The notes under the pieces were generated by a model. The model ran no database searches. It saw only the letters and a program-made list of their open reading frames with translations, and was not told where the DNA came from. Made by a program: the position numbers and the translations under genes. This document shows positions 3,531-20,449 of a DNA stretch of 64,000 nt, piece by piece; within the stretch, counting starts at the first letter, position 1, and each line of letters starts with the position of its first letter. Origin of the DNA: Micromonospora sp. WMMD1102 (lineage in GTDB: Bacteria; Actinomycetota; Actinomycetes; Mycobacteriales; Micromonosporaceae); NCBI RefSeq assembly GCF_029626265.1, contig NZ_JARUBN010000001.1:3224001-3288000 (forward strand), written 5' to 3'.

Positions 3531-3613
3531 CTCCGTTCGTCTGGCGTCCGCGCGGGGTAGTGGATCCCGCCCAATGTGGTCAATACCGTATCAGATGGTC
3601 TTTTTGACCACAA
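3531..3613 (-). promoter_or_regulatory. promoter-operator-leader cassette, copy 1
   Basis: Reading leftward: -35 TTGTGG (3613-3608), 17-base spacer, -10 TACGGT (3590-3585), half-site GACCACA (3581-3575) at the expected start of transcription, leader hairpin GCGGGATCCACTACCCCGC (3570-3552), then CCAGACGAACGGAG (3544-3531) ahead of the start codon. An imperfect palindrome of GTGGTC/GACCAT halves (3611-3595) overlaps the -35 and spacer. The same order recurs in front of four more genes in this block. Confidence 0.75.
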
Positions 3614-3652
3614 GCGGGTGCCCCGATCGGATGGCCGGGGCGCCCGGGGCGG

Positions 3653-4099
3653 TCAGTGGAGCCGGGGAGACATCGACCTCCAGCGCCGCACTTCCTCTTC
3701 CGGGTCGGTCTCGACCGGCATCAGGTCTCGCATGTAGAGCACCTTCTTGATGGCCGCCATCTCCTCCGGGTCCACCGGGTGGTCGTCGGCGGCCATCCCG
3801 GACAGGTACTCATACAGGCCCTGGACCACGTAGCCGGGCTGCACGGTCATCCAGTAGACCCGCCCCTCGGGCATGGTCAGGTCCGGTGCGCAGACCCGGC
3901 AGCAGTTCCCCCTGGCCGACGGGTCCAGGGTGGTTCCGCAGTCTCGGCACGGAACTCCACCCCCGTCCTCGGTGCCCCACAGACAGGTGCCGCAGGCGCC
4001 CATGAAGAGCGTGCCGGGCTCGGGTAGGCGGCGGCCGCACACTGGGCAGTTCTCGTGCTTGTGGGCCTGGTCGGTGTCGTTGGTGACGTTGTCGCTCAT
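3653..4099 (-). CDS. Cys-rich hypothetical protein
   Basis: The 148-residue protein has CPVCGRRLPEP (residue 18), CGTCLWG, CRDCGTTLDP and CCRVCAP within its first 75 residues. This suggests two zinc-binding ribbons. It is followed by an acidic helical C-terminus (MPVETDPEEEVRRW). The N-terminal ribbon resembles that of the downstream neighbour at 2927-3520. ATG 4099 is set by the leader layout. No enzymatic motif is visible. Confidence 0.7.
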   Translation of the reverse strand: MSDNVTNDTDQAHKHENCPVCGRRLPEPGTLFMGACGTCLWGTEDGGGVPCRDCGTTLDPSARGNCCRVCAPDLTMPEGRVYWMTVQPGYVVQGLYEYLSGMAADDHPVDPEEMAAIKKVLYMRDLMPVETDPEEEVRRWRSMSPRLH

Positions 4100-4109
4100 G
4101 ATGCTTCCG

Positions 4110-4183
4110 TTTTCGTCTGGTCCGGGGTAGTGATCCCCGATCACTGTGGTCAATGACATAACCCGTGGTCGATCCCACCACAA
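4110..4183 (-). promoter_or_regulatory. promoter-operator-leader cassette, copy 2
   Basis: Reading leftward: -35 TTGTGG (4183-4178), 17-base spacer, -10 TATGTC (4160-4155), half-site GACCACA (4151-4145), leader hairpin CGGGGATCACTACCCCG (4139-4123), then a CCAGACGAAAACGGA variant. The palindrome over the -35 is GTGGTC-N5-CACCAC (4165-4181 on the plus strand), with one arm imperfect. Confidence 0.75.
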
Positions 4184-4222
4184 CCGTGAAGGGTCGGACG
4201 ACCAGTTGGGTCCTTGGGGGAC

Positions 4223-4257
4223 CGCCCCGGGGCCGGCACGGTGCCGGCCCCGGGGCG
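4223..4257 (-). terminator. terminator hairpin after the 4264-5151 gene
   Basis: CGCCCCGGGGCCGGCAC is followed by its exact complement 17 bases long, directly downstream of the stop at 4264 and upstream of the next promoter. This separates the two transcription units. Confidence 0.7.
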
Positions 4258-4263
4258 GGTGTG

Positions 4264-5151
4264 TCAGTGCCGGACGAACCAGAGCGGCAGACCGGTTCGT
4301 GAGGCCCGGTCGGCCAGCACTCGGCGGGCCGTACGCTCGGCCGTCTCCCAGGCATTGATCCCCTCCCGCAGGCGCGGGGCCATGATCTCCGGCCACTGCT
4401 CGGCGGTGGCTACGCTGCGGTCCGGCCACACCAGACCGGGGCCGGCGCTGATCTGGACCGTCCGCCCCTCGGCGTAGGTCACGGTCACGATCACCGCCGC
4501 GCGGACACCCCTCATGTCCTCGGCGCTGGCGTCCGGGTAACGGGCCAGGATCGCCGCCGCCAGGCTGGTTACGTCCCAGACGGTCAACTCCTCCACCGGC
4601 GGCAGGCTCTGGCCTGCCGGCACTGGAGGGGCAAGGGGTCCCAGCCCGTGGTTGATCACCGTCACCCGGCGCGAGAAGCCGCCGTCGGTCCGCTCGTCGA
4701 CCACCCTGACCAGGTGGGCGGATTCCGGCCCCCGCGCCCCCGGGGGCGCCCACAGCTTGGCCCGTGCCGGGGCCAGGACGACACCCTCCCGGTAGCCCTT
4801 GTTCGGCAGGGTGGTGGGCCGCTTGGGGTGGGCACCTACCCATCCGGTGACCGCGCTCTGCGGGTGGTCGCCGGCAAGTAGAGCCCAGGCGAACCGCCCC
4901 GGGTAGCGGCTTGCCGGGGTCAGTTTTGCCGCCACCAGGTTGCCGGCAAGGTCGAACAGGGCCGGAAACGGGGCCACTCCCCCGGCCTGGGAGATCTCGG
5001 CGTTTCGGCGGTGCAGGGCGGCGGTGATCTCATCGGCCCAGCGGGCCAGTTCCGCGTCTGGTCCCGTCCGGTGGCGTCCGGCCCGGCGGGCGGCGTGGTC
5101 GGCGGCGCGCTGGTAGTCCCGGGCCCGGTCCGGGTTGTGGTGCTCGCTCAT
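4264..5151 (-). CDS. hypothetical protein, 295 residues
   Basis: I do not recognise this protein. The N-terminus is charged and helical (DYQRAADHAARRAGRHR). The middle holds a compact domain (FAWALLAGDHPQSAVTGWVGAHP) and a beta-rich stretch (RRVTVINHGLGPLAPPVP), and the C-terminal 100 residues are helical. It has no signal peptide, membrane segment or Cys cluster, unlike its neighbours. ATG 5151 has GGAG 7 bases upstream and is preceded by two CACTACC-loop hairpins rather than the full promoter cassette, so it may be co-transcribed with 5255-5776. Confidence 0.65.
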   Translation of the reverse strand: MSEHHNPDRARDYQRAADHAARRAGRHRTGPDAELARWADEITAALHRRNAEISQAGGVAPFPALFDLAGNLVAAKLTPASRYPGRFAWALLAGDHPQSAVTGWVGAHPKRPTTLPNKGYREGVVLAPARAKLWAPPGARGPESAHLVRVVDERTDGGFSRRVTVINHGLGPLAPPVPAGQSLPPVEELTVWDVTSLAAAILARYPDASAEDMRGVRAAVIVTVTYAEGRTVQISAGPGLVWPDRSVATAEQWPEIMAPRLREGINAWETAERTARRVLADRASRTGLPLWFVRH

Positions 5152-5163
5152 GGTGTCTCCTGT

Positions 5164-5239
5164 GCTCGTCTGGCGGTACCGGGCGGGTAGTGAGGCCGCC
5201 CGGGTGATGTTGGTGGGCGCCCCGGCCGGTAGTGGCCGG
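5164..5239 (-). promoter_or_regulatory. tandem CACTACC-loop leader hairpins
   Basis: Two hairpins lie between the 5255 stop and ATG 5151. The distal one (5239-5222) is CCGGCC-ACTACC-GGCCGG. The proximal one (5203-5179) has an 8-bp stem CCGGGCGG/CCGCCCGG with CCTCACTAC in the loop and is followed by CCAGACGAG and GGAG. No -10/-35 or GTGGTC palindrome is present here, so only the leader half of the cassette is kept. Confidence 0.6.
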
Positions 5240-5254
5240 TCCGGGACGCGGGTG

Positions 5255-5776
5255 TCAGGACAGCGGGGCGCCGTCCACGGTGATCACGTCGGCGGTGCCG
5301 ATAGGCATCCGCCACCCCTGGGGGGTGAGTACGGTCAGTGCCCGGCTGGTCCGGTGGACGATGTTGGCGGTCAACTGGTGGGCGTTGCCGTCCTGACCCC
5401 GGTAGACGATGACGCTAGCGCCGGGCTGGAACACCTGGTCGGTGGGGCCGGTTTCGTTGGCGTCCGTCTCGGCACGGCGGAAAATCTCGTCCTCGATGAG
5501 TTCCAGCGGGTAGTGGGTGGCCGGCACCTGCTGGCCCCGCTCGATGGTGGAGAAGGCGTGGGCGCGCAGGCTTTCCAGGGTGTCGGGGTTCATCCCCCGC
5601 ATGCGGCGGGAGATCTCCACCCGGACCGCGTTGAAGGGCCGGTCCAGGTAGGGCACCCCGTCCTTGGTCAGGGCGTTGAGGCTGTTGTATGCCCGGCACA
5701 GGTAGGTGGCGCTCATACCGCAGAGGTGGGGGTCGATGGCGGTTGCCGGCGGGTTGATGGGGGTTGCCTGGATCAC
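5255..5776 (-). CDS. hypothetical protein, 173 residues
   Basis: Unrecognised. The N-terminal half is helical with basic patches (VRVEISRRMRGMNPDTLESLRAHAF). The C-terminal half looks like a small beta-barrel (SVIVYRGQDGNAHQLTANIVHRTSRALTVLT). GTG 5776 is chosen because the GGAG of the shared leader sits seven bases upstream. It is a single-gene unit with its own promoter cassette. Confidence 0.65.
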   Translation of the reverse strand: MIQATPINPPATAIDPHLCGMSATYLCRAYNSLNALTKDGVPYLDRPFNAVRVEISRRMRGMNPDTLESLRAHAFSTIERGQQVPATHYPLELIEDEIFRRAETDANETGPTDQVFQPGASVIVYRGQDGNAHQLTANIVHRTSRALTVLTPQGWRMPIGTADVITVDGAPLS

Positions 5777-5781
5777 GGGTG

Positions 5782-5864
5782 CTCCGTTCGTCTGGCTTGT
5801 GTGCGGGGCAGTGACTCCCGCTCGCTGTGGTCGCGACTGTAGGAGGTGGTCTTTGGGACCATGG
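5782..5864 (-). promoter_or_regulatory. promoter-operator-leader cassette, copy 3
   Basis: Reading leftward: degenerate -35 CCATGG (5864-5859), 17-base spacer, -10 TACAGT (5841-5836), half-site GACCACA (5832-5826), leader hairpin GCGGGAGTCACTGCCCCGC (5821-5803), then CCAGACGAACGGAG (5795-5782). The palindrome is GTGGTC-N5-GACCAT (5846-5862 on the plus strand). Confidence 0.75.
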
Positions 5865-5959
5865 GTTTATTGCTGGTGAGGGCAGGGTGCCGGAGCCAAC
5901 CGACCCGGGACGCCCGGGAGCTCGGCACAGTGGGGCCGGGCCTTTGCTGTGTCAGGGGT

Positions 5960-5994
5960 GCGCCCCCGGGCCGGCCGGACCGGCCCGGGGGCGC
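5960..5994 (-). terminator. 15-bp terminator hairpin
   Basis: GCGCCCCCGGGCCGG and its exact complement enclose a five-base loop about 55 bases past the stop at 6049. This ends the 6049-6507 unit before the next promoter. Confidence 0.75.
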
Positions 5995-6048
5995 GGGTGG
6001 GTCAGAGCGTGTCGTACGGGTCGTAGCCGTTGCGCCGCTGACGCAGGT

Positions 6049-6507
6049 TCAGGCGTGGCGGCGGCACAGGTGACGTACGTCCTCGGGGGCCGACGGCGCC
6101 GGCCGGTCCTTGCCGTTGCTGTCGATCAGGTGCAGGCGCAGCGTGGCCACCCGGGGCAGCGCGCACGGGCCGTGGTCGGGCAGCCCGGGGTAGACCACGC
6201 CGTACTCAAGCCGGTCGGTGCACAGGCCGAGCAGCAGTGCGTCGCTGCCGCCCTGGCGGGTGATGGCGGCCAGTACCAGTTCTGCCGGATAGTCGCCCAC
6301 CTCCGGCAGGCTTCGCTGTCCCCGCTGCCCCATCCTGTAGAGGTCGTGGGGCTCCAGGTCGGCCAGCCGCCGTGCGATCTCCAGTTCCGGGGCCAGCAGG
6401 ATGCCGGCCGGGCTGTGCCCGCCCCGGACCTTGTCCAGGGCCCAGTGGTAGGCGCTGGACAAGGTCTGGGGGCTCATGTCGGCCAGGGTGGTGCCGAACG
6501 TGCTCAT
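6049..6507 (-). CDS. hypothetical protein, 152 residues
   Basis: Unrecognised soluble protein. It begins with a helical region (SPQTLSSAYHWALDKVRGG, then EIARRLADLEPHDLYRMGQRG), continues with a short beta segment (LEYGVVYPGLPDHGPCALPRV) and ends VRHLCRRHA. ATG 6507 has GGAG five bases upstream. It is a single-gene unit between its own cassette and a strong terminator. Confidence 0.65.
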   Translation of the reverse strand: MSTFGTTLADMSPQTLSSAYHWALDKVRGGHSPAGILLAPELEIARRLADLEPHDLYRMGQRGQRSLPEVGDYPAELVLAAITRQGGSDALLLGLCTDRLEYGVVYPGLPDHGPCALPRVATLRLHLIDSNGKDRPAPSAPEDVRHLCRRHA

Positions 6508-6520
6508 GGTTCTCCGATCT

Positions 6521-6601
6521 CGTTTCGTCTGGCTTCCGTGCGGGGCAGTGACTCCCGCGCGCTGTGGTCACTACTGTAACTCGTGGTCGCTACGACCACA
6601 A
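6521..6601 (-). promoter_or_regulatory. promoter-operator-leader cassette, copy 4 (perfect palindrome)
   Basis: Reading leftward: -35 TTGTGG (6601-6596), 17-base spacer, -10 TACAGT (6578-6573), half-site GACCACA (6569-6563), leader hairpin GCGGGAGTCACTGCCCCGC (6558-6540), then CCAGACGAAACGAG. The palindrome is perfect here: GTGGTCG-CTA-CGACCAC (6583-6599), which gives the best definition of the operator. Confidence 0.8.
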
Positions 6602-6677
6602 GGGCGAATCTGTTATCCGCCCTGACCAGCGCAAACCCGCTCCACGAGGCGGCTCGTCGGGCGCGGGATTGCGCCGG

Positions 6678-6890
6678 TCACCCCGTGACGACAGTCCCCG
6701 AGCCAGACTCCAACCGCTCCATCCGCCAGGCCCCGACCCCCTCGGCCTCGCCGACGGCACGCAGGTTCAGCCGCCGACACAGGTCACAGACCCCGGTCGC
6801 CTCCACCCGCAACACCTGTCCGCAACCCCAGACCGGCAGGCCCGGGTCCATCACCCGAGCCCGGCAGCCACAGACACGAAACGCCACCAT
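6678..6890 (-). CDS. small Cys-containing protein (tentative)
   Basis: A 70-residue frame starts at ATG 6890 after a G-rich Shine-Dalgarno. It contains FRVCGCRARV, VWGCGQV and GVCDLCRRL, arranged like a zinc-binding site. It overlaps the tail of the frameshifted gene at 6784-7450 and could instead be that gene's true C-terminus after a second frameshift. It reads more like a protein than the competing frame does. Confidence 0.45.
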   Translation of the reverse strand: MVAFRVCGCRARVMDPGLPVWGCGQVLRVEATGVCDLCRRLNLRAVGEAEGVGAWRMERLESGSGTVVTG

Positions 6891-7450
6891 GTCCCCCCGC
6901 CGAAACGTCCACCGTGACCGTCCGTTCCCCACCAACGGCACGGCGACCAGAGTCGGTCACGTCCCCGTCCGCGTCGAACCAGCCGGCGGCCTCACACCGC
7001 CGGGCCACGTCCCACGGCCCGGCACCCACCCAGTTGCCGCCACGGTTGATCACCGACACGATCAGCCGGGCCTGCTCGAACGTCGGGGAGCCGTCAGCGG
7101 CCCGCAGCGCCGCCCGGCGCGTTTCGTACTCCCGGTAAGCCCGGCGGCCGTCCTCGACCAGGGCCTCCTCGTGGCAGTCCTCGACCAGCCGCCGCCGGCC
7201 GGCCGGCCTCCCGGGAGACAGCCTCAGCCGCCTCGGCCGTCTGCCGGTCGGCCCGTAGCCGGGCCCGGCAGCTCGCACAGAACTGGGCGTAGGTGCTGGC
7301 CTCCACCTGCACATCGGTGCGCAGATCGGAGGCATCCAGCAAGATCGTCTGCTTGCACCGTGCGTGTGGGGCACCGTCGGACCCGGCCACCGCATGGAAG
7401 TTGAGGGAGCGGCTGCTGGCCTTGCGGGCATACCTGATGTCGCTGCTCAT
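6784..7450 (-). pseudogene. hypothetical gene split by a frameshift
   Basis: The N-terminal part starts at ATG 7450 (MSSDIRYARKASSRSL), has CxxC-like residues (FCASCRARL near residue 60) and reads to about SREAGRPAA. At a repeated GGCC tract near 7190-7206 the protein-like signal jumps to another frame, which continues LVEDCHEEALVEDGRRAYREYE and GGNWVGAGPWDVARRCEAAGWF. Either the gene is broken or the GGCC run is a sequencing error. The product is unrecognised. The N-terminal part follows promoter-leader copy 5. Confidence 0.55.
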
Positions 7451-7460
7451 GGGTGGTGCT

Positions 7461-7549
7461 CTCCGTTCGTCTGGCGCGGGGTAGTGAATCCCGCAGTGTG
7501 GCGATAGATGCGCGCTGTAGTGGTAGCGCACACTGTGGTCACGAAGGTA
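7461..7549 (-). promoter_or_regulatory. promoter-leader cassette, copy 5 (variant)
   Basis: The leader hairpin GCGGGATTCACTACCCCGC (7494-7476) and CCAGACGAACGGAG (7474-7461) are intact. A TACCTT -10-like box (7549-7544) followed by GACCACA (7540-7534) lies about 40 bases farther upstream than in the other copies. The GTGGTC palindrome is absent. The extra spacer contains GCGCGC and TAGTGGTAGCGC segments. Confidence 0.6.
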
Positions 7550-7560
7550 ACGAGAGGCCC

Positions 7561-8265
7561 CTACGCCGTCAACGTCGCCAGCGTCGACCACTCATCCCGC
7601 GCCCAGACATGCCGCCGCCCCCGCACCCGGGCCAGCACCCCGCACGGGCACCCCACTCCCCTACACACACACTCCCGGGACGCACACTCCGCCACCCACT
7701 CCCGGGCCTCCGTGGACTCCTGACGCACCCGCAGCGACCGCAACGCGCACACCGGACACTCCACTACTGACACCGGCACCCACACCGGCGTAAGCCCTGC
7801 TGCCAACTCCACTGCTCCGAGCACCGGCGCTAGGTCATCGACCAGCCCGGCCACCACCGCCCCCGGCAACGCTCCCGGCACCGACCGGGCCACCCCCGCC
7901 AGCACACCCAGCCCGGTCACCACCCGCACCGCCAGCCCACCGGCCGGGGCAGGCCACCCCCTGCCCGATACCGACCGGACTGCCTGATCGGCGGCCCGGG
8001 TGACCGACGCGTCCAGCGTCGTCCGCACGTCCAGCAGATCCACCGATGCCGGTGCCGGCATCGACGCCGACGGGGCCAGCCCGTCGCGCAGCCACCGATA
8101 CCTGTGCCCCCGCTCATACACCGCCCGAGCGTCTAGCGCCGCCCGCCGCTCATCCGACATCGTGGCCCCAGGTCGCGGCCCTGGGCGGTCCAAGGTGGAG
8201 GCGCCGGAGAGCGCCCGCCAGCCGGCCCGCAGTCGGCCCACCGTCAACAGCAGTTCTCCCCGCAC
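7561..8265 (-). CDS. Cys-rich hypothetical protein, 234 residues
   Basis: Unrecognised. The first 70 residues are basic and helical (VGRLRAGWRAL). The middle is Ala/Val/Gly-rich and could pack as helices (VVTGLGVLAGVARSVPGALPG). The C-terminal 70 residues hold CPVCALRSL and CASRECVCRGVGCPCG, a likely multi-zinc site. GTG 8265 follows GGGGG. It is the first gene of the leftward block, so the cassette downstream of it (copy 5) opens a new unit. Confidence 0.6.
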   Translation of the reverse strand: MRGELLLTVGRLRAGWRALSGASTLDRPGPRPGATMSDERRAALDARAVYERGHRYRWLRDGLAPSASMPAPASVDLLDVRTTLDASVTRAADQAVRSVSGRGWPAPAGGLAVRVVTGLGVLAGVARSVPGALPGAVVAGLVDDLAPVLGAVELAAGLTPVWVPVSVVECPVCALRSLRVRQESTEAREWVAECASRECVCRGVGCPCGVLARVRGRRHVWARDEWSTLATLTA

Positions 8266-8858: not shown

Positions 8859-8859
8859 G

Positions 8860-9133: not shown

Positions 9134-9157
9134 AGCGTTGAACGTTGCCTGTGAATA

Positions 9158-9186
9158 TTGACACGGACTGTGATCGCATCGATACT
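9158..9186 (+). promoter_or_regulatory. consensus-like promoter for the Rhs gene
   Basis: TTGACA (9158-9163) and GATACT (9181-9186) are separated by exactly 17 bases and lie about 39 bases before GTG 9225. This is close to the housekeeping sigma consensus. Confidence 0.65.
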
Positions 9187-9224: not shown

Positions 9225-12200
9225 GTGTCTACGCACCGTAAGGCTTCTGCGCGCCGTCGCGCCCGTTTTCTGTCGTCGTTGCTTGTGGGGTCGTTGCTGG
9301 CTTCGTTGGTGGGTGTGGTGCCGGCGGTGCCGGCGGCGTTGGCGGCGGAGCCGGGTGGGCGGGAGCGTCCGGTGCGGGTGTCGTCGGCGGCGACGAAGCC
9401 GAAGCCGTTGCCGGCGATGCCGGTTTACAAGGGTGAGTCGGTGGAGTGGCCGTCCCGGGGCTCTGCGGTGGTGGACCTGCCGCTGTCATCTGACCGGTCG
9501 CGACGTCTGCCGGGGTCGGTGGAGCCGGGTGGTCTGCCGGTGACGGTGACGGCGGTGGACGATGTCGATCTGGATGTCCTGTCGAGTCGGGGGTTGGCGG
9601 ATGCGGCGGGCGCGTCGGAGTTGCCGGGCAGGGTGCGGGTCGAACTTCTCGATCGAAAGGTGGCCGGGCGTGCGGGGGTGCCGCTGGCGTTGAAGGTCGA
9701 GCGCGTTGATGGCGGCACCGGTGGCCGGGTGGAGCTTCGGGTGGATTATTCGGCTTTCGCGCATGCGTATGGGGGTGACTGGGCGTGGCGGCTGCGTCTG
9801 GCGACGATGCCGGCGTGTGTGTTGGCCAGCCCAGAGGTTGAGCAGTGTGGGCAGGTCGGTTGGCTTGACTCCGTCAATGACGGTGAGGCTGGTGTGATCA
9901 CCGCTGAGGTCGAGTTGCCTGCCAGGCCCGCCGCGGCGACCGGAGAGGACCAGACGGCGGGTGCCGGGGCACCGGCCAGAGACGTTGATCGACTGGTGGT
10001 GTTGGCTGCCAGTGGCTCTTCCACTGAGACGGGGGACTTTTCGAAGTCGGACTTGGAGGAGTCCTCGACGTGGGCGGTCAGCGGTAACTCGGGTGATTTC
10101 ACGTACTCGTATCCGATGGCGGCGCCGTCGGTGCCGGGTGGTCTGGTGCCGGAGGTGGGTCTGGCGTACAGCTCGGGGGCGGTGGATGGGCAGACGGCGG
10201 GATCGAACACCCAGCCGTCGACGTTTGGTGAGGGTTGGAATTACACTCCTGGCTTCATCGAGCGGACCTACCGGCCGTGCGCCGACGATTCGGAGCCGGC
10301 ACTGTCGCCGCACTGGACGGCGCTGGCCGCTACGGCGGACCTGTGTTGGCGGCAGCCGAACGCGCAGGTCACGCTTAATGGCACGGTTGGTGAGATCGTG
10401 CTGGCCAGTGACGGCAAGTGGCGGCTGGCCGACGATGACGGGTCGAAGGTCGAGTTGTTGACCGGTGCCTCGAACGGCGATGACAACGGTGAGCACTGGA
10501 AAATCACCACGGCGGACGGGACGCAGTACTGGTTCGGTCGGCAGACTCTGCCGAACGGCAAGGGGAACACCAACTCCGCTCCGGTGGTGCCGGTGTTCGC
10601 CAACCATTCGGGTGAGCCGTGTTTCAGTTCGTCGTCGGCGTCCGCGTCTCGGTGTCAGCAGGCGTGGCGGTGGATGCTCGACTACGTCGTGGACCGTAAC
10701 GGCAACGAGATCTCGTACTGGTACGACCGGGATACGGTGCGTACCGGGTTGATGAACTCGGCGTCGACGACGGTGGCCTACCACCGTGCGGTGCACCTGA
10801 ATCGAATCGAATACGGGACCCATACCTCTGATGGCTCGTCTGTGACGGCGCCGGCGCGGGTGGTGTTCACCAACTCCGACCGCTGTGTGACCAGTTCCTG
10901 TGGTACGCGGAACGAGACGAACTGGCCGGATACGCCGTGGGATCTCGAATGCCTGACCGCGCCGTGCGCGAATAACCTGGCGCCGACGTTCTGGTCAAGC
11001 AAGCGGGTGTCGAAGGTCACGACCCAGGTGCTGAAGAGTGGGACGTACTCACCGGTGGACGAGTGGGTGATAGGGCACTCTTTCCCGACGGCGCCGTCGC
11101 CGGTGCTGTGGCTGTCCAATATCGAACACAGCGGCAAGAGTGGCGGGTCGGTGACTCTGCCGAAGCTGTTGGCCTTTGGTACGAAGACCCAGAACCGGGC
11201 GGACTACGATCCGGCCGGCACGATGAAGTCGCACGAGAAGTACCGCATCACAAGGCTGCAGACGGAGACGGGCGGCCAGGTCGACGTCACCTATGCGGGC
11301 AATGACACCGGGTGCACGTTCGGTGGTACGTTCCCGGATCCCGACCAGAACTCCAAGCGCTGCTTCGCGCAGTACTACACCAACCCGTCGGGTGAGACCG
11401 GCTGGTCATGGTGGCACAAGCGGATCACGGCCAAGATCGTCGAATCCGACCTGGTCGGTGGCTCCCCGCCGATCACCACCGAATACGGCTATTCGACGGA
11501 GAACTCCTCCAGCAGCGTGCTGTGGGGGCTGTCGAAGGGCGCGGCGGTGTGGGGGGCGTCGTTGCCCAAGCGGTCCTGGTCGGAGTGGGCGGGCTACACC
11601 AACGTCACCGTGAGGAAGGGTAACCCGACCGCCGGTACCAGGTCCCAGACAGATTACCTGTATCTGCGCGGCCTGGATGGTGACGTCATCGATACCGGAA
11701 CCCGCTCGGTGAGCGTCACTCCGTTCGACTCAGTAGTTGGTGGCGGAGCGGCATGGGATACCGAGTATCGGCGTGGACATCTGCTCAACGAGCGGATCTA
11801 CGATCGTGCCGGCGGCACCGTGGTGCAGATTCTCAAGCATGATCCGTGGGCTGTCACCACCGGCACCCGGACGTTGTCGACGGATTGGGCGGTGCCGAAC
11901 GTCCACAAGTCATACATCACCCGGACGAAGGTCGAGACCCGGTGGGAGTGGGTCGACGGCGCCTGGTCGCAACGAGCCCGGGTCGATACCGGCTTCGACT
12001 CCACGTACGGGCGGGTCCTCACGGTCTCCGACGAAGGCAATTCCGCCGACGGTGACGAGACCTGTACCACGTACGCGTACGCCGACAACGCTACCGGGTA
12101 CAAGTACGAGTTCGTCAAGCAGCGGACGGATCGGGCGGAGGGCTGCGCGGAGACCCCGGGCGCCCTGCTGGGCGACACCCGCTACTACTACGACGGTCTG

Positions 12201-15200
12201 GCCCATGGTGGGGCGCCGGGCCGGGGCAACGTGACCAAGACCGAGAATTACGTCGATGGTGGTTGGCAGATCGCGTCACAAAACGTGGTCTACAACCCGC
12301 ATGGTCAGATCACCTCGTCCACCGATGCCCTGAACCGAACCACCACGACCATCTACACCGAGAACGCGGACCGGCTGAACACCCAGGTAGCGGTCACCAA
12401 CGCGGCCCTGCACACCACGACGACCACTCTCGATGTCTCCCGTGGTCTGCCGTTGACGGTGACTGACCCCAACACCAAAGTGACCACCGGTACCTACGAC
12501 CCGTTGGGCCGGTTGTTGACCGTCACCAGGCCGGGCAATACCACGGGCACTCCGGATGCGGCCTACACATACACCGTGTCCCAGACAGCGCCGTCCTGGA
12601 TCCGGACGAGGGCGTTGGGCCCGAACGGGAACCAGATCGAGTCGTACGACATCTACGGCGGGCTGTCGCAGCATCGCCAGACCCAGACGGTCGCGGCGGA
12701 TAGCAAGCGGATCATCACCGAGCGGGTGTTCGACGAGCGGGGCCTGACGGTGAAGGAGTCCGCTTTCTGGAATACCAACTCCGGACCGACGTCGACCCTG
12801 GTGACGGCGGCAGACTCGGCGATCGAGCGGCAGACCCGCTACACCTATGACGGCCGTGGTCGGCAGACAGAGGCCGAAAGTTGGTCACTGGGGCAGTACT
12901 CCTGGAAAACCACCACCTCCTACACCTGGAATTCCACCACCGTCGTACCACCGGCGGGCGGGTTCCCGACCCGAGCGATCGTCGACGATCGCGGACAGGT
13001 CGTGGAGAAGCGCCAGTACCACACCTCGGACCTCGACGGTGATTACGACCACACCGGGTATGACTACAACCTGCGCGGCGAGTTGACCTCAGTCACCGAT
13101 CCTGCCGGCAACACCTGGAGCTACGACTACGACCTGCTCGGTCGCAAGACCCAGGCGGCCGACCCGGACGCGGGCACCACACTCACCGAGTACCACAGCA
13201 CCGGCACCGTGAAGGCGACGACGGACGGGCGGGGCAAGAAGCACTACCACCACTACGACAACCTCGACCGCCACACCGAGATCCGGGAGGACAGCCCCAC
13301 CGGACGGTTGGCGGCCCAGTGGACCTACGACACCGCCGCCAAAGGCCAGCTGAGCAGCGCCACCCGATACGACACGGACGGGCTGGCCTACACCACCAGC
13401 GTCGGCTCGTACGACGACGGCTACCGGCCGCTGTCCTCGACGGTCTCCATTCCCGCGTCAACCAGCAACGGAGCCCTCGCCGGCAGCTACACCACGGGAA
13501 TGACCTACAAGGTCAACGGTGCGGTCGCGACCGTCACCCACCCCGGCGTCGGAGGGCTGCCCGCCGAGACTCTGACCTACAACTACCTCAACCAGGGCCT
13601 GCTCGACTCGATGAGCTCCGCCCAGCAGACCTACCTCGCTGACGTCGAATACGCCTACGACGGCCTCGCGTACCGCACCTACCTCGGCAACGCTGACAAG
13701 CGGGTCCGGGTCACCACCCAGCACGACACCGGACACCGTCGCCTGACCAACATCCAGGTCGACACGGAAAACCAAACCAGCCCCGGCAACTGGGACGACA
13801 AGTACACCACCGAGTACGGCTACCGGGACAACGGGCTGATCGCCGCCATCGCCGGCAAGACCAACGGCACCCGCGACCAGGTCGAGTGCTTCACCTACGA
13901 CCACCTGCAACGGTTGACCGAGGCGTGGACCGAAGCATCCTGGACCTGCGCCACCCCACAACGCGCGGGCGCGGACCCGTACTGGCGGAAGTGGACCTTC
14001 GACAAGGTGGGCAACCGGCTCACCCAGACCGACAAGGACCCCGCCGGCGACACCACCTGGACCTACACCACCCCCGCAGCGGGACAACCCCGCCCGCACA
14101 CCGTCACCGGCGTGACCGCGACCGGTCCCAAAGCCGGCACTCCCACCCGGGCCTTCACCTACGACACCGCCGGTAACACCCTCACCCGCACCACCGAGAC
14201 CGGCAACAGCCAAACCCTCACCTGGGACCCCGAGGGCCACCTCGCCACCCTGACCGAAAACGGGCAGACCACCAGCTACCTGTATGACGCCGACGGCAAC
14301 CGGCTCATCTCCCGGGCACCAGGCAAGACCACCCTCTACCTCGGCGGCACCGAACTCGCCCTCGCCACCGGCAGCGGCCAACCCGACGGCACCCGCTACT
14401 ACAACGGCTACGCCGTCCGCGACGTCACCGGACTCAAGTGGACCGTCAACAACCACCAGGGCACCGGCCAGCTCCAGATCGACGCCGGCACCTTGGCCTG
14501 CCAACGCCGCCGCACCATGCCCTACGGCGAAGACCGCGGCACCACCCCAACCCCCTGGCTCGGCACGAAAGGCTTCGTCGGCGGCACCAACGACGACACC
14601 AGCCTGGTCCACCTCGGCGCCCGCGAATACGACCCCACCCTCGGCCGCTTCATCAGCATCGACCCGGTCATGGACCTGACCGACCCCCAACAGATGCACG
14701 GCTACAGCTACGCCAACAACAACCCCAGCACCCTCAGCGACCCCGACGGATACCGACCCCTCGCCACCAACGGCGGCTACGAGGAGGACCGCTACTGGAG
14801 CAGCGGCGGCGGCAAGGGAACCAAACTCGCCAAGAACCCGAAGACCAATAAGTGGGGCGTAGCCAAGAAAAAGCCCACTGCCCCGAAACCGCCGCCGAAA
14901 AAGAAGCCGGCTATCATCCTCGGGGACAAGGTAATCGGGGCGCCGGACCGCAAGGCACTCGAGGACGCGATCAACAAGTGGTCCATCGACGGTGCCGGGC
15001 TTGGCCTTGGGGACAAGGAATACTACGTAGGCTTTAGGATTTGCCAGGAACACGCCGACTGGTGCTCGCAGTGGGCTCTCGAAAACACGGAGTGGGTCGG
15101 GCAGATCGATGGCTTGGGCTACTACGAGCAACGCGTAGCCTCAGATCCGTTCTTCAACCTGTTCGAGAGCCTGCAATCGGCTCCCGCCGGCGGTAAGGGC

Positions 15201-15977
15201 CGCGGCCGTTCCCGGCCAGGAGGCAGCTGCTTCCGCAGCTTCGCGGCAGACACCCAGATCCTCATGGCCGACGGCAGCACCAAACGTATCGAAGACATCA
15301 AGGTCGGCGACCTCGTCCTCGCAACCGATCCAGAAACCCGCGAGCACGGGCCGCGTGAAGTAACCCACATCTGGGTGCACGGGGACCAACTCGTAGACCT
15401 CAAGCTGGTCAACGGCACCACGATCACAACCACCGAAGACCACCCCTTCTGGAACCACACCGACCAACAGTGGCAAGACGCCCAACACCTCGACCAGGGC
15501 GACCTGCTCCTGACCGCCACAGGTGCAACCGTGCCCGTCGTCGGCCTGCTGAACACAACCGCGACCTTGGCGGCCGCCTACAACCTCACGGTCGACGACA
15601 TCCACACGTACTATGTGCTCGCCGGCAACACGCCCGTCCTCGTGCATAATACGAACCCGAGCGGTTGTGGCGTATCGACGACTATTAGCCGACAGAAGCA
15701 GAGTCGTCATGTGGCGGGCGATCCATTGCACAATGGAGGGGGATATTTTAGAACGCACGGCGAGGCGCAGGAGGTTCTAGATGCATACCACTCCGGTGGC
15801 GCCACCGTTCTTGGTCGGACCGCTAATGGCAATATCGTGGTCCGGTATAACGAAGTGACTGGATTCAACAATAACCCCCGCTCTGGCTATACCGACCAAC
15901 CAACGAATATCTTCATGATTAAGGGGACGAAGAGTCCTAGTGTTGTCCCTATAAACCCAAACTGGTCGGCTTCCTGA
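9225..15977 (+). CDS. secreted Rhs-repeat polymorphic toxin with HINT and C-terminal toxin domain
   Basis: The 2250-residue protein starts at GTG 9225 with a Sec-type signal (RRRARFLSSLLVGSLLASL, then an AxA-like site near residue 41). A large beta-rich N-terminal region follows. From about residue 1000 there are many YD-type repeats (YDPLGRLLTV, YDGRGRQ, YDLLGRKTQ), ending in the Rhs core signature LGAREYDPTLGRFISIDP near residue 1796. After a Lys/Pro-rich linker comes a HINT self-cleaving domain from Cys2002 (FAADTQILMADGSTKRIEDI) to VLVHN at 2142. The last 107 residues (2144-2250) are the toxin tip, with a KQSRHVAGDP motif resembling the Ntox50 RNase-like class (tentative). The tip is clearly lower in GC than the rest. 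The immunity gene follows directly. Confidence 0.9.
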   Translation: MSTHRKASARRRARFLSSLLVGSLLASLVGVVPAVPAALAAEPGGRERPVRVSSAATKPKPLPAMPVYKGESVEWPSRGSAVVDLPLSSDRSRRLPGSVEPGGLPVTVTAVDDVDLDVLSSRGLADAAGASELPGRVRVELLDRKVAGRAGVPLALKVERVDGGTGGRVELRVDYSAFAHAYGGDWAWRLRLATMPACVLASPEVEQCGQVGWLDSVNDGEAGVITAEVELPARPAAATGEDQTAGAGAPARDVDRLVVLAASGSSTETGDFSKSDLEESSTWAVSGNSGDFTYSYPMAAPSVPGGLVPEVGLAYSSGAVDGQTAGSNTQPSTFGEGWNYTPGFIERTYRPCADDSEPALSPHWTALAATADLCWRQPNAQVTLNGTVGEIVLASDGKWRLADDDGSKVELLTGASNGDDNGEHWKITTADGTQYWFGRQTLPNGKGNTNSAPVVPVFANHSGEPCFSSSSASASRCQQAWRWMLDYVVDRNGNEISYWYDRDTVRTGLMNSASTTVAYHRAVHLNRIEYGTHTSDGSSVTAPARVVFTNSDRCVTSSCGTRNETNWPDTPWDLECLTAPCANNLAPTFWSSKRVSKVTTQVLKSGTYSPVDEWVIGHSFPTAPSPVLWLSNIEHSGKSGGSVTLPKLLAFGTKTQNRADYDPAGTMKSHEKYRITRLQTETGGQVDVTYAGNDTGCTFGGTFPDPDQNSKRCFAQYYTNPSGETGWSWWHKRITAKIVESDLVGGSPPITTEYGYSTENSSSSVLWGLSKGAAVWGASLPKRSWSEWAGYTNVTVRKGNPTAGTRSQTDYLYLRGLDGDVIDTGTRSVSVTPFDSVVGGGAAWDTEYRRGHLLNERIYDRAGGTVVQILKHDPWAVTTGTRTLSTDWAVPNVHKSYITRTKVETRWEWVDGAWSQRARVDTGFDSTYGRVLTVSDEGNSADGDETCTTYAYADNATGYKYEFVKQRTDRAEGCAETPGALLGDTRYYYDGLAHGGAPGRGNVTKTENYVDGGWQIASQNVVYNPHGQITSSTDALNRTTTTIYTENADRLNTQVAVTNAALHTTTTTLDVSRGLPLTVTDPNTKVTTGTYDPLGRLLTVTRPGNTTGTPDAAYTYTVSQTAPSWIRTRALGPNGNQIESYDIYGGLSQHRQTQTVAADSKRIITERVFDERGLTVKESAFWNTNSGPTSTLVTAADSAIERQTRYTYDGRGRQTEAESWSLGQYSWKTTTSYTWNSTTVVPPAGGFPTRAIVDDRGQVVEKRQYHTSDLDGDYDHTGYDYNLRGELTSVTDPAGNTWSYDYDLLGRKTQAADPDAGTTLTEYHSTGTVKATTDGRGKKHYHHYDNLDRHTEIREDSPTGRLAAQWTYDTAAKGQLSSATRYDTDGLAYTTSVGSYDDGYRPLSSTVSIPASTSNGALAGSYTTGMTYKVNGAVATVTHPGVGGLPAETLTYNYLNQGLLDSMSSAQQTYLADVEYAYDGLAYRTYLGNADKRVRVTTQHDTGHRRLTNIQVDTENQTSPGNWDDKYTTEYGYRDNGLIAAIAGKTNGTRDQVECFTYDHLQRLTEAWTEASWTCATPQRAGADPYWRKWTFDKVGNRLTQTDKDPAGDTTWTYTTPAAGQPRPHTVTGVTATGPKAGTPTRAFTYDTAGNTLTRTTETGNSQTLTWDPEGHLATLTENGQTTSYLYDADGNRLISRAPGKTTLYLGGTELALATGSGQPDGTRYYNGYAVRDVTGLKWTVNNHQGTGQLQIDAGTLACQRRRTMPYGEDRGTTPTPWLGTKGFVGGTNDDTSLVHLGAREYDPTLGRFISIDPVMDLTDPQQMHGYSYANNNPSTLSDPDGYRPLATNGGYEEDRYWSSGGGKGTKLAKNPKTNKWGVAKKKPTAPKPPPKKKPAIILGDKVIGAPDRKALEDAINKWSIDGAGLGLGDKEYYVGFRICQEHADWCSQWALENTEWVGQIDGLGYYEQRVASDPFFNLFESLQSAPAGGKGRGRSRPGGSCFRSFAADTQILMADGSTKRIEDIKVGDLVLATDPETREHGPREVTHIWVHGDQLVDLKLVNGTTITTTEDHPFWNHTDQQWQDAQHLDQGDLLLTATGATVPVVGLLNTTATLAAAYNLTVDDIHTYYVLAGNTPVLVHNTNPSGCGVSTTISRQKQSRHVAGDPLHNGGGYFRTHGEAQEVLDAYHSGGATVLGRTANGNIVVRYNEVTGFNNNPRSGYTDQPTNIFMIKGTKSPSVVPINPNWSAS

Positions 15978-15990
15978 TGGAGTGAGGGTC

Positions 15991-16323: not shown

Positions 16324-16407
16324 ACCCCGTAGGGCACCGCCTTGCCCAGCCCATCAGCCGGAAAGTCATGTGTGCGCACGGGCGGGTGGCATCAGGCATC
16401 GTCGGTC

Positions 16408-17224: not shown

Positions 17225-17261
17225 GTCGGGGTGTCTCCTGTGTCGTCTGGCGGTGCCCGCG

Positions 17262-17283
17262 CGGGCGCCGTGGGTGGCGCCCG
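17262..17283 (-). terminator. 8-bp hairpin between operon segments
   Basis: CGGGCGCC and GGCGCCCG enclose a six-base loop between the stop at 17296 and the start at 17224. CCAGACGA and GGAG follow as in the other leaders, but the CACTAC loop is replaced by ACCCAC. It can act as terminator or leader. Confidence 0.5.
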
Positions 17284-17295
17284 CCCGGGTGTCGG

Positions 17296-18146: not shown

Positions 18147-18667
18147 CGGGTGGCCTGGGCGGTGGTCGGGGTGGCGGCCGGGTTGACGGCGGTGGCGTTG
18201 AGCGCTTCCATGGCCAGGGCGGTCATGACCTCCCGGAAGGGGGCGGCCACCTTGATCTGGATGTTGTGGAACTGGCCGCCGGCTTTCCAGGCCAGTCCGG
18301 GGATCGGGTTGCCGTCCGGCCCGCAGACCTTGCCGTCGATGAGTTGGGCGGTGCGGCGGGCGGCCTTGACGTAGTCGGGGTTGGGGACCTTGATCACCTG
18401 GTCGGGGTGGCGCAGGATCAGCCAGTCGACCATGGCGTTCGGGTCGTCCAGGGTGGCGCTGGGTCGGGTGATGGCGGTGGTGAGGGTGGCAAGGCCCGGG
18501 ATGTCCCAGACTTTGGCCATGCCGGTGTCGAGCAGCAGGGACTTGGCGTCGGCGGCCAGTTCGGCTCGGAGAAGTTCGGCGCGGCGGCCGGCTTCAGCGG
18601 CCATCGCCTCAAGCCATGCGATCTGTTCGACCTTGGCGACGCGGTCGGTGTCGTTGATGGTGGTCAT
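18143..18667 (-). CDS. hypothetical protein partnered with the Sak4-like ATPase
   Basis: 174 residues from ATG 18667, which overlaps the ATPase stop (ATGA). The N-terminal half is a long helix (EQIAWLEAMAAEAGRRAELLRAEL). It is followed by WDIPGLATLTTAI and WLILRHPDQVIKVPNPDYVKAA. No family recognised. Strict coupling to an AAA_24/Sak4-like ATPase suggests a role in DNA recombination or replication, as for proteins neighbouring Sak4 in phages, but this is inference. Confidence 0.6.
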   Translation of the reverse strand: MTTINDTDRVAKVEQIAWLEAMAAEAGRRAELLRAELAADAKSLLLDTGMAKVWDIPGLATLTTAITRPSATLDDPNAMVDWLILRHPDQVIKVPNPDYVKAARRTAQLIDGKVCGPDGNPIPGLAWKAGGQFHNIQIKVAAPFREVMTALAMEALNATAVNPAATPTTAQATR

Positions 18668-19632
18668 GGTGTCTCCTCCGTCTGGCGGGTAGTGGCCGCC
18701 GGGTCGGTGTTCGTCTGGTCGGTGCTGGTCTGCGCGGCCTTCTGTGCTTCTCGTTCCTCGGCCAGCCGTCGTTTGCCGATCCGGTTGATCAGGTCGCGCA
18801 GGGTTAGGGGGTTGCCGTCTTCGTCGATGAGTGGCGCGGGCATCCACCCGGCCATGGCGGGGTCGTCGCGGATTGCCCTGAGGGTGGCGGTGTCGGTGGC
18901 CGGGTTCTCGATCACGGCGCGGATGTCGCGCAGGTCGGGTACCGGGATGCCCTGGCCCAGCCAGGCGGCCATGGTGTCGGCCAGTTCCGGGCCGGGGCGG
19001 TGGAACCGGCGGTCGGCCAGGTCCTCGCACGCGGATTTGGTGATCGTGAGTACGTGGTCGGTGTCCAGGTCTCCGACGGTCAGGAAGTCGTGCTCGACGC
19101 CTTCCCGGTGGTCGGGTTTGAGGCCGAGCCGCCGGGTGGTGGCCCGGCCCCGGTCGCCTGCCTCGGTGGCGGTGTACTCGGGTACGTGTTCGGTCTTGAC
19201 CCGCAGGGTGGCCAGCACGTGGCCTGGGAAGGTCCGCAGCGCTATCCGGATGGCGGCTTCGATGGGCCGGTACTCGGCCCAGCCGGTACGGCGGTCACTG
19301 TGGCGGTCCACCCGGTCCAGCGCCCCGCCCGGCCCCGACCAGTACAGGGAGTAGGAGTCGATGATCAGGGCGCCGGCGCCGGCGTGGTTGGCCTCGGCTA
19401 CCAGGGTGGGCAGGTCGGCGGGATCGGCCTCAAGCGGGGTGGTGTGGAGGAATGTGAACCGGTCGGCGTACTCGGCGGCCCGGCCGTCGGTGTCGATGAC
19501 GGCCACGGGGGCTTGTCCGGCAAGGGCGGTGGCCAGGGTGAGGGCCAGCGGGGTCTTGCCGGATCCGGGCGGACCTTGGATGGCGATCCGGCCGAACATC
19601 TGCTCCCGGCGGGCGGGGGCGTAGTGGGTCAC
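18664..19632 (-). CDS. AAA_24 / Sak4-like RecA-fold ATPase
   Basis: 322 residues from GTG 19632, which overlaps the previous stop (GTGA). The Walker A is GPPGSGKT about residue 18, followed by VIDTDGRAAEYAD and a Walker B-like strand GALIIDSYSLYW near residue 90. The order matches phage nucleotide-binding proteins of the AAA_24/Sak4 group, short RecA-like proteins that assist single-strand annealing. The C-terminal third is helical and Gln/Thr-rich. It heads the overlapping operon 19632-17296. The longer open frame upstream belongs to the MITE and is not coding for this protein. Confidence 0.75.
   Translation of the reverse strand: MTHYAPARREQMFGRIAIQGPPGSGKTPLALTLATALAGQAPVAVIDTDGRAAEYADRFTFLHTTPLEADPADLPTLVAEANHAGAGALIIDSYSLYWSGPGGALDRVDRHSDRRTGWAEYRPIEAAIRIALRTFPGHVLATLRVKTEHVPEYTATEAGDRGRATTRRLGLKPDHREGVEHDFLTVGDLDTDHVLTITKSACEDLADRRFHRPGPELADTMAAWLGQGIPVPDLRDIRAVIENPATDTATLRAIRDDPAMAGWMPAPLIDEDGNPLTLRDLINRIGKRRLAEEREAQKAAQTSTDQTNTDPAATTRQTEETP
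18674..18700 (-). promoter_or_regulatory. leader hairpin embedded in the ATPase coding end
   Basis: GGCGG-CCACTAC-CCGCC (18700-18684) is followed by AGACGGAGGAG before ATG 18667. It is the same hairpin-plus-CCAGACG arrangement as in the separate leaders, but it lies entirely inside the last codons of the upstream ATPase gene. This points to an RNA-level signal for the downstream gene. Confidence 0.55.
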
Positions 19633-20390
19633 CGCTGGCCCCGCAGGATGGGGCCGCCAAGGGGTCGTGGTCCTGTCCCGGTCTGGCCGGCTGCCCGTAG
19701 TTGTTCTCGCCGACTTGTTCGGGCCCCACTGCTCCATCGATTCCTGGACCCGCCACGTCGATTCCAGAAACCTGCGGCCCCACATGGGCGTCGATGGCTG
19801 GCGGCGTTATCGCGGCCCCACCGGTTCGCGTCGCTCAGCGCCGAGTTGCTGCCGCGCCGGTCTTCGACCGGCTTGCCACCGAATCGCCGCCCCAAGGCGT
19901 CGCTGGTCGGAGCGCAGCTCCACGGCGTTGGCGGGTTGGTGGCGGGTTGGTGGGGCTCCTCCGGCCGAAGTACGACCGTTCCGGCTTCTGGGACTGGTGG
20001 AGCCAACTGGAACTGGAGTTTCCATCGAGACATGGACACATTCCGTGGCTGGAGGGTCCAGAACTTGCTGGAGAGGTGGGGCCCGAAAGGCCCGGAGAGA
20101 ACACGTAGTTGCCGCCGTGCTTCGAGTTCCTGTGCCAGGCAGGGGCAGGCTTCTCCGCGTGGGCAGCCGCAGCCCTTGAGTTCGACGGTGACGGTGGTGG
20201 TGCCGCGCTGGTACAGGTGGAGCCGGTAGGCGCAGGTGACGTTGCCGGCGTACTGGTCTGCGACCCGGAACGGGCCGGTGGTGGGGATGCCCGGTACCGG
20301 TGTGCGTGGGTGCTGGTTGAGGGGGGCGCCGCAGCCGGGGGCGGCGCACGGGGTGGCGCCGTCCACGGTTTCGGGCAGGGTCGTACTCAC
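19629..20390 (-). CDS. Cys-containing hypothetical protein with an in-frame MITE insertion
   Basis: GTG 20390 follows AAGGAG. The native N-terminal 96 residues include CAAPGCGAPL and CGCPRGEACPCL (likely zinc sites). After EARRQLR the frame enters the 402-bp MITE (19702-20103) and crosses it without a stop. It then resumes in the native frame as AAGQTGTGPRPLGGPILRGQR and stops at the GTGA shared with the ATPase. Insertion plus duplication is 408 bp, so 136 residues are added and the present product would be 253 residues. Without the MITE the protein would be 117 residues. Whether the extended protein is stable is unknown. Confidence 0.65.
   Translation of the reverse strand: MSTTLPETVDGATPCAAPGCGAPLNQHPRTPVPGIPTTGPFRVADQYAGNVTCAYRLHLYQRGTTTVTVELKGCGCPRGEACPCLAQELEARRQLRVLSGPFGPHLSSKFWTLQPRNVSMSRWKLQFQLAPPVPEAGTVVLRPEEPHQPATNPPTPWSCAPTSDALGRRFGGKPVEDRRGSNSALSDANRWGRDNAASHRRPCGAAGFWNRRGGSRNRWSSGARTSRREQLRAAGQTGTGPRPLGGPILRGQR
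19702..20103 (+). mobile_element. 402-bp MITE, copy 1
   Basis: The element starts TGTTCTC and ends GAGAACA. The terminal 50 bases at the two ends are imperfect inverted repeats (38 of 50 positions match, including TTCGGGCCCCAC and TGGACCC). A 6-bp target duplication CGTAGT flanks it (19696-19701 and 20104-20109). No transposase domain is encoded. The second copy, at 42695-43096, is inverted and the same length. Confidence 0.85.
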
Positions 20391-20415
20391 TGGGTTGTTG
20401 CTCCTTGGGTGTGGT

Positions 20416-20449
20416 GCCGGCCCCGGCGGTAGTGGGCGCTGGGGCCGGC
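20416..20449 (-). promoter_or_regulatory. CACTACC-containing hairpin before the MITE-bearing gene
   Basis: GCCGGCCCC and GGGGCCGGC form a 9-bp stem around a loop with CCCACTACCGCC, between the XRE stop at 20473 and GTG 20390. It may be the XRE gene's terminator, the leader hairpin of the next gene, or both. The CCAGACGA tag is missing. Confidence 0.5.

Follow-up and report, generated by a model that had tools for sequence, protein, structure and literature searches.

A repeated constant-loop leader hairpin, most likely an RNA element, ahead of small genes of a probably phage-derived element in Micromonospora

Leader hairpins and tags at the locus

The window analyzed here is a 64,000-nucleotide (nt) stretch of the genome of Micromonospora sp. 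WMMD1102 (RefSeq assembly GCF_029626265.1, contig NZ_JARUBN010000001.1, positions 3,224,001 to 3,288,000). It carries small minus-strand genes in two blocks, at 2.4-8.3 and 16.9-20.7 kb, which flank an Rhs gene. Seven of the minus-strand start codons (3520, 4099, 5151, 5776, 6507, 7450 and 18667, after which the leaders are named) are preceded by a hairpin with the loop (N0-3)CACU(A/G)C, followed by a CCAGACG(A/G) tag leading into the Shine-Dalgarno (SD) sequence. In all 8 copies, the tag begins 18-26 nt upstream of the start codon. A recurrent leader hairpin had been proposed here from the letters alone (hereafter, the original prediction), and hairpins are present at all the places that it named, with leaders in both leftward blocks and Rhs between them. 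Three further copies were found, namely, the 7450A hairpin, the leader of 17224 and a plus-strand relic at 32210-32292. The hairpins and tags are as follows:

3552..3570, minus strand: hairpin 3520, GCGGG-AUCCACUAC-CCCGC
3531..3544, minus strand: tag 3520 with SD, CCAGACGAACGGAG
4122..4140, minus strand: hairpin 4099, UCGGGG-AUCACUA-CCCCGG
4104..4120, minus strand: tag 4099, CCAGACGAAAACGGAAG
5179..5203, minus strand: hairpin 5151B, CCGGGCGG-CCUCACUAC-CCGCCCGG
5217..5249, minus strand: hairpin 5151A, 13 bp with one bulge, loop CCACUA
5157..5173, minus strand: tag 5151, CCAGACGAGCACAGGAG
5803..5821, minus strand: hairpin 5776, GCGGG-AGUCACUGC-CCCGC
5782..5795, minus strand: tag 5776
6540..6558, minus strand: hairpin 6507, GCGGG-AGUCACUGC-CCCGC
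6512..6532, minus strand: tag 6507, CCAGACGAAACGAGATCGGAG
7475..7495, minus strand: hairpin 7450B, UGCGGG-AUUCACUAC-CCCGCG
7508..7533, minus strand: hairpin 7450A, upstream of 7450B, GUGUGCGCU-ACCACUAC-AGCGCGCAU, 9 pairs including two G-U
7461..7474, minus strand: tag 7450
17261..17284, minus strand: hairpin 17224, GCGGGCGCC-ACCCAC-GGCGCCCGC, diverged loop
17235..17250, minus strand: tag 17224, CCAGACGACACAGGAG
18684..18700, minus strand: hairpin 18667, GGCGG-CCACUAC-CCGCC, within the ATPase gene upstream, at its 3' end
18673..18685, minus strand: tag 18667, CCAGACGGAGGAG
20416..20449, minus strand: hairpin 20390, 9+3 bp, loop CCCACUAC, without a tag
32210..32229, plus strand: relic hairpin, CCCGGGG-CACUAC-CCCCGGG
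32258..32267, plus strand: relic GACCACAGCG
32275..32292, plus strand: relic tag CCAGACGAATGAACGGAG, with the frame behind it stopping after five codons

The single hairpin formula originally given for five of these starts does not fit 4099 and 3520, both of which deviate from it. The 20390 leader had been described as a loop without a stem but actually has one and lacks the tag. The variant at 18667 is there, with a tag that reads CCAGACGG and a hairpin lying inside the ATPase gene; an extra tag copy, CCAGACGA (18711-18718), lies ahead of this hairpin within the same gene. Gene 2857 is preceded by a leader hairpin of 11 bp with an ACACCA loop and without a tag.

Stems vary with compensation around a constant loop

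There are 11 copies of the tag CCAGACGA in the window versus 3.1 expected, a number attained in 0 of 100 shuffles. Six copies lie in the leaders of 3520-7450, one before 17224, one in the relic (32275) and one in the ATPase gene (18711), and the others are at 21727 and 51042. By itself, the loop heptamer CACTRCC shows no significant excess (30 versus 21.5 expected, with 8 of 100 shuffles attaining 30). At least 5 Watson-Crick pairs enclose the loop at 8 of the 11 marked leader sites, compared to 3 of the 59 other CACT(A/G)C sites (70 in the window); in 12 control loci, the figure is 8 of 189. The marked sites below this threshold are 5234 (4 pairs), 20434 (3 pairs adjoining the loop) and 17314, which was initially taken for a leader loop and dropped, there being no surrounding stem. 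As to the 3 stem-bearing sites among the 59, two are one transposase coding sequence present twice, and 7522, the remaining one, belongs to an additional leader hairpin.

The stems fit their own copy, with pairing kept through two-sided changes and in sense orientation. When the 3' flanks were redealt among the copies, with the register re-fitted every time, the summed stem of the 11 hairpins was 59 versus a permuted mean of 35.2 (p = 2e-4); this set excludes 17314, for want of a stem, and 17224 and 2857, which have other loops, and includes 7522, found by its stem, so that the test is somewhat favored. The stems of 3520, 5776, 6507 and 7450B are identical (GCGGG/CCCGC), which is what duplication would leave, and were counted as one. 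The seven distinct stems are pair-compensated (summed stem 39, versus 19.6 on average after permutation; p = 2e-4), bearing out the original observation of compensated stems with a constant loop.

When the seven tagged leaders are aligned, 96.9% of the cells pair, 3 of the 5 pairs change on both sides, and the covariation score is 0.286 versus 0.045 in shuffled alignments (0 of 500 reaching it), dropping when the partner is slid; the structure was chosen from the same sequences, which biases these values towards structure, and MAFFT aligns 18667 poorly. The window has 9 GYAGTG hairpins with at least 5 pairs, and every one is a leader hairpin read as its reverse complement, so that the loop is CACTRC in the sense strand. 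Compared to shuffles, folding is exceptional for the 5151, 17224, 20390 and 2857 leaders (z -3.4 to -3.8) and not for 3520 (z +0.86), 4099 (-0.93), 5776 (+0.10), 6507 (-0.01), 7450 (-1.38), 18667 (-1.62) and the relic (-0.97). Rfam 15 yielded 0 matches above the gathering score in the window, and no U-run terminators were called on the minus strand at 2400-8400, the region scanned.

A shared module on the promoter side

Five of the leaders share a further module upstream of the hairpin, and four of these are preceded by a candidate operator:

3572..3590, minus strand: 3520 unit, GACCACATTG (3572-3581) and -10-like TACGGT (3585-3590)
4142..4160, minus strand: 4099 unit, GACCACAGTG (4142-4151) and -10-like TATGTC (4155-4160)
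5823..5841, minus strand: 5776 unit, GACCACAGCG (5823-5832) and -10-like TACAGT (5836-5841)
6560..6578, minus strand: 6507 unit, GACCACAGCG (6560-6569) and -10-like TACAGT (6573-6578)
7531..7549, minus strand: 7450 unit, GACCACAGTG (7531-7540) and -10-like TACCTT (7544-7549)
3595..3611: candidate operator of the 3520 unit, GTGGTC-N5-GACCAC with 1 mismatch
4165..4181: candidate operator of the 4099 unit, palindrome with 1 mismatch
5846..5862: candidate operator of the 5776 unit, palindrome with 1 mismatch
6583..6599: candidate operator of the 6507 unit, GTGGTC-N5-GACCAC, perfect palindrome

GACCACA lies 52-90 nt upstream of the five starts, with the -10-like hexamer three bases further upstream. 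In the window, the longer form GACCACAG(C/T)G (GACCACAGYG) is limited to 4 minus-strand leaders and the relic, 5 occurrences in all, with 3520 having GACCACATTG instead. With at most 1 mismatch, the palindrome occurs 4 times in the window, each time ahead of a leader; with at most 2 mismatches there are 11 sites, which is not above chance. Across the genome, the palindrome with 4-6 bp spacing is found in 26 places versus 10 for the reversed control, and it is thus the placing of the palindrome, rather than its sequence alone, that is informative.

Each unit, comprising box, GACCACA, hairpin and tag and, in four cases, the palindrome, would form an expression cassette. At 5151 and 18667, the hairpin and tag are present and no promoter module was seen. 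Because they are kept at these two starts without the module, and within the upstream gene at 18667, the hairpin and tag are not merely promoter parts. The proposal of selection on RNA structure gains from the compensation of the stems, but it had missed the promoter and operator module, so that conservation is in part at the DNA level.

The leader family within and beyond the locus

The exact motif matched 8 of 300 genomes of the family, including that of the window; the other 7 have one match each, which is not above the reversed control. The exact pattern also matched 45 viral contigs and 17 genome contigs, once each; a stem of at least 4 pairs surrounds the loop in 6 of the 45, one of which (L024) has 5, and the Actinomadura match lies within a long reading frame. 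Another of these six, a 10.8-kb viral contig of 51% G+C (L045, IMGVR_UViG_3300015371_000392), has a single copy at 5806-5850 with, in order, a 4-bp stem, a CACTAC loop, CCAGACGA, GGAG and ATG, shortly upstream of a 530-amino acid (aa) frame that is terminase-like by look. We count it as a chance look-alike, although distant membership is conceivable.

A covariance model, R1, was built from the seven tagged leaders. In the genome of the window itself it recovered six leaders at E < 1e-6, the next best match having E = 0.048; six of the training leaders score 42-59 bits and 18667 scores 25.8. Among 200 other genomes, 39 have weak matches (E <= 0.05), at most 2 each and at most 26.7 bits, and the best score among 62 viral and genome loci is 24.3 bits. 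The leader layout was found in none of 19 weak-match loci scanned. Four of the 19 have a CACTRC stem of at least 4 pairs and a nearby tag-like octamer (2 mismatches), without a common layout, and L203 has a tag ahead of SD and ATG without such a loop. A loop 5-mer common to more than 3 leaders was not seen in L087, L088 or L089 or in phages Satis, Tonitrus and TG1. In searches over 40 genomes, the filters were stricter. R1 is short and 18667 itself scores 25.8 bits, and therefore divergent members could be missed.

Within the collections searched, the leader family seems private to this element. The covariance check suggested by the original prediction thus had a mixed outcome: the pairs covary, but neither the patterns nor R1 found convincing members outside the locus, and for that reason cross-species conservation or evolutionary depth cannot be claimed.

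Structured leaders in a second genome of the genus

Another genome of the same genus, G113, holds the sole relative of the 5151 protein (p5151) among 249 other genomes of the family. Its contig C111, at ~65-92 kb (L105/L094), carries ~40 small leftward genes, most of them behind a strongly structured, covarying leader, and this array adjoins terminase, portal and capsid genes. In an alignment of 39 of these leaders, 88.9% of the cells are paired versus 68.5% in shuffles, 9 of 10 pairs change on both sides, and covariation is 0.504 versus 0.195 shuffled (0 of 500), stronger than in the window; leaders with a short or very long gap or a doubtful start were excluded, and the structure prediction came from this alignment itself. 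The first hairpin of these leaders is followed by another, whose loop is GG and which has at least 5 pairs in 28 of 38 leaders versus 4.7 when permuted, a count biased upward because its anchor was picked to favor long stems. Stems of at least 6 pairs were surveyed and found in 38 of 55 leaders of G113 and in 6 of 13 in the window, compared to 8-23% in shuffles; for six other loci the values were 18-45% versus 17-29%. L094 has no Rfam match. The G113-leader pattern, tried as a search query, matched 80 viral contigs once each and was rejected as too generic.

The two loci are alike in having a small leftward gene array, a p5151 relative and a structured leader ahead of the SD with compensated, variable stems. 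They differ in sequence and in that each G113 leader combines a first hairpin with another that has a GG-type loop; the layout of CACUAC loop and CCAGACGA was not seen there.

The element and its neighborhood

The principal genes of the two blocks and between them are the following:

2927..3520, minus strand: gene 3520, 197 aa, Cys-rich, without a Pfam match
3653..4099, minus strand: gene 4099, 148 aa, Cys-rich, paralogue of 3520
4264..5151, minus strand: gene 5151, 295 aa, phage family phrog_5855
9372..15977: Rhs gene, RHS repeats and a pretoxin HINT domain
18664..19599, minus strand: ATPase gene (p19599), AAA/Sak4-like, PF13479, phrog_1366

Relatives of p5151 are found in nine Streptomyces phage records and one Rhodococcus phage record, as well as in the G113 phage locus. 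For the ATPase, relatives were found in 145 phage records and 37 plasmid records, some of the latter Streptomyces plasmids of 88-92 kb (e.g., NZ_CP108500.1), one of which was inspected and has ParA/ParB and integrase genes adjoining; these plasmids are possibly phage-plasmids. Weak relatives of p18667 stand next to the ATPase in L087, L088 and L089. The leader-block proteins are mutually unrelated, except for p3520/p4099 (clear) and p5776/p6507 (weak, E = 0.013). Searches with p5776 (348 genomes) and p4099 (345 genomes) matched solely the window itself; p4099, p18667 and p6507 had zero matches in phages and p5776 zero in plasmids, and no relatives were confirmed in viral contigs searched with the ATPase and p5776. 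Judging from these matches, the leader-block genes are mostly orphans, and those with relatives point to actinophages. No virion genes were found among the window proteins scanned, two genes of which belong to phage families. HTH proteins are encoded at 20473-20715 and 20899-21711.

The element also shows decay. The frame behind the 7450 leader appears broken (7094-7450 versus 6784-7431), with the coding signal seemingly shifting frame, a repeat is inserted after the p20390 start, and the plus-strand relic is without its gene. The inserted repeat, of ~140 codons, begins after the 20390 start (19.70-20.12 kb) and recurs at 42.70-43.12 kb with 95% identity at the protein level. The element is likely a remnant of the early region of a phage or phage-plasmid, as its gene content suggests.

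Elsewhere in the window, an inverted pair of a three-gene transposon (480, 253 and 86 aa; IS21-like by look) occupies 33638-36098 and 39837-42297. Two DDE transposase genes of 421 aa each, with the same start and length, lie at 22811-24076 and 44006-45271; one was tested against Pfam, and a chance CACTGC hairpin lies within both coding sequences. Type I restriction-modification genes encoding HsdR and HsdM (Pfam) are located at 46481-54114, and a lantibiotic dehydratase gene at 56293-59337 marks the beginning of a lanthipeptide-like cluster.

Comparison with start-associated repeats of actinophages

Repeats beside start codons are known in several groups of actinophages; among the described kinds, start-associated sequences (SAS) and their extended form (ESAS) come nearest to the window leaders. 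The repeats termed SAS in Cluster K mycobacteriophages, described in 2011 (PMC3203893), contain the SD and stand, mostly in sense orientation, beside the starts of varied non-structural genes; on a subset, the extended form, ESAS, adds an inverted-repeat part and a putative promoter further upstream (PMC3203893; PMC11373665). Finding no compensation between the arms, the discoverers took ESAS to be DNA sites (PMC3203893), and a reading as SigA-like promoters that contain inverted repeats was given for Adephagia, a Cluster K phage (PMC11373665). According to that paper, from 2024, the role of start-associated repeats is still ill-defined (PMC11373665).

Like SAS and ESAS, the window leaders come in several copies per element, in sense orientation and directly ahead of the starts of different non-structural genes. 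The sequences differ: the SAS 13-mer, GGGATAGGAGCCC, is not enriched in the window, and the merged pattern of SAS and EF repeats, GGGAWAGGASCCC, has 59 loose matches there, all with 2 or more mismatches, versus 85 expected. As to an upstream inverted repeat and promoter of the ESAS type, a palindrome and -10-like box stand at four leaders, but the 2400-8400 scan gave no sigma-70 consensus promoter. Whereas the ESAS arms, as described, do not support RNA pairing, the window has a variable-stem, constant-loop hairpin between the promoter box and the ribosome-binding site (RBS).

In Microbacterium phages of clusters EF and EG, which have SAS/ESAS-like and inverted-repeat motifs, the EF repeats lie at the RBS and the EG repeats typically 14-22 bp upstream of starts (PMC7302621). 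Their sequences, GGGAAAGGACCCC and GATCAACCNNGGTTGATC, differ from those of the window, and the EG arms are constant (PMC7302621). Cluster O mycobacteriophages have many 17-bp dyad repeats per genome (PMC4351075) which, unlike the window leaders, have invariant arms and are loosely tied to start codons (PMC4351075); TGTTCGG-N3-CCGAACA has 3 matches at 3 mismatches in the window versus 3.85 expected. A constant-loop hairpin leader was not found in the literature, as judged largely by titles and abstract openings. Because the tested sequences fail and the RNA covariation differs from what the passages compared here describe, we set the window leaders apart from SAS. On this comparison they are not SAS members, although they appear alike in position and regulon logic.

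Discussion

The sequence supports compensated pairing, sense orientation, a near-constant position, a shared promoter module and, in the collections searched, restriction to one locus; start site, operator, factor and function are what we infer. In our preferred explanation, which we give about an even chance, a leader cassette repeated in one probably phage-derived mobile element would make its small genes one post-transcriptionally read regulon. In at least five units, transcription would probably start just after the -10-like box, at GACCACA, and a DNA-binding protein at the GACCAC half-sites may control it. The mRNA would then carry, near its 5' end, a hairpin whose stem need only pair, a constant CACU(A/G)C loop and a tag running into the SD. 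One putative trans factor, protein or RNA, most likely reads the constant loop and tag post-transcriptionally, and would set translation start or mRNA life for all leader genes jointly; protection of the mRNA against 5'-end-dependent decay may be a further role of the 5' hairpin. Coat protein and N-boxB are cases of phage proteins reading a loop on a free stem. They share with the window leaders the constant loop on such a stem and serve as a working analogy, no such protein having been found here.

Several observations weigh against this explanation. For most of the short leaders, folding is no stronger than in shuffled sequence. One stem sequence recurs in four leaders, and 4099, 5151 and 18667 are the only tag-bearing loop hairpins that vary, which leaves few independent stem changes. 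With R1, 18667 (25.8 bits) does no better than the best stray match (26.7 bits), and no convincing member was found outside the locus. The 2400-8400 scan did not find a sigma-70 consensus promoter, the window has no hairpin of a complementary (antisense) small RNA, and the 12 leader-block proteins have no RNA-binding domain in Pfam. Finally, the element is decayed, and today's copies may be inactive.

The units could be purely DNA-level cassettes, in which a promoter and operators (the GACCAC half-sites and, as one more operator, the palindromic sequence of the hairpin) are bound in all copies by one phage repressor or activator and RNA pairing is a by-product of dyad symmetry. In favor of this, the palindrome, -10-like box and GACCACA are tightly common to four units, and ESAS have been taken for promoters (PMC11373665) or DNA sites (PMC3203893). 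Nevertheless, a DNA site would need constant arms, whereas here the arms vary with compensation around a constant, asymmetric loop in sense orientation; moreover, the hairpin and tag stand without the promoter module at 5151 and are intragenic at 18667. We consider a DNA-only cassette unlikely.

Passive hairpins, acting without a trans factor as stabilizers of mRNA 5' ends or as insulators between genes, with the tag an efficient RBS spread by duplication of upstream regions, would account for hairpins near the putative 5' end of the mRNA in five units, for strong-stem leaders that lack the constant loop (2857, ACACCA; 17224, ACCCAC) and for the four identical stems. A stabilizer, however, has no need of a constant loop, nor an RBS of CCAGACGA, for which no pairing with the anti-SD was seen by eye, and this account, too, appears improbable.

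That the leader is a folded or repeated recombination site for swapping small genes would fit mostly unrelated orphan genes behind a common upstream part, but it is very unlikely given that the conserved part stops at the SD, as expected for expression, and that no recombinase domain was found by Pfam in the 12 leader-block proteins (p17646, p18146 and p20716 lying outside the scan). Chance in G+C-rich sequence, where short GC stems are common, CACTRCC is not significantly enriched and several leaders are no stabler than shuffles, is hardly credible in view of the tag excess, stem counts, covariation and near-constant tag position, and of the permutation, which speaks against chance for the whole set.

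We thus return to the reading of the leader as an RNA element, most likely acting post-transcriptionally on phage-type genes. It is favored over a DNA site or a terminator because the loop is fixed and the stem free, the orientation is sense, the hairpin is kept without the promoter module at 5151 and inside a gene at 18667, and U-runs were not found on the minus strand of the first block. More broadly and more tentatively, actinophages of the host genus could wire most of their small accessory genes into post-transcriptional regulons through free-stem, fixed-loop hairpin leaders read by a phage-coded factor, with a lineage-specific loop serving as the 'address' (CACUAC here, GG-type in G113), a possibility that we regard as doubtful. 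If true, phages would have a new control layer of their own over translation or mRNA stability, one that evolves through address swaps. A fixed loop with covarying stems suggests that some start-associated leaders act as RNA, and the question becomes testable.

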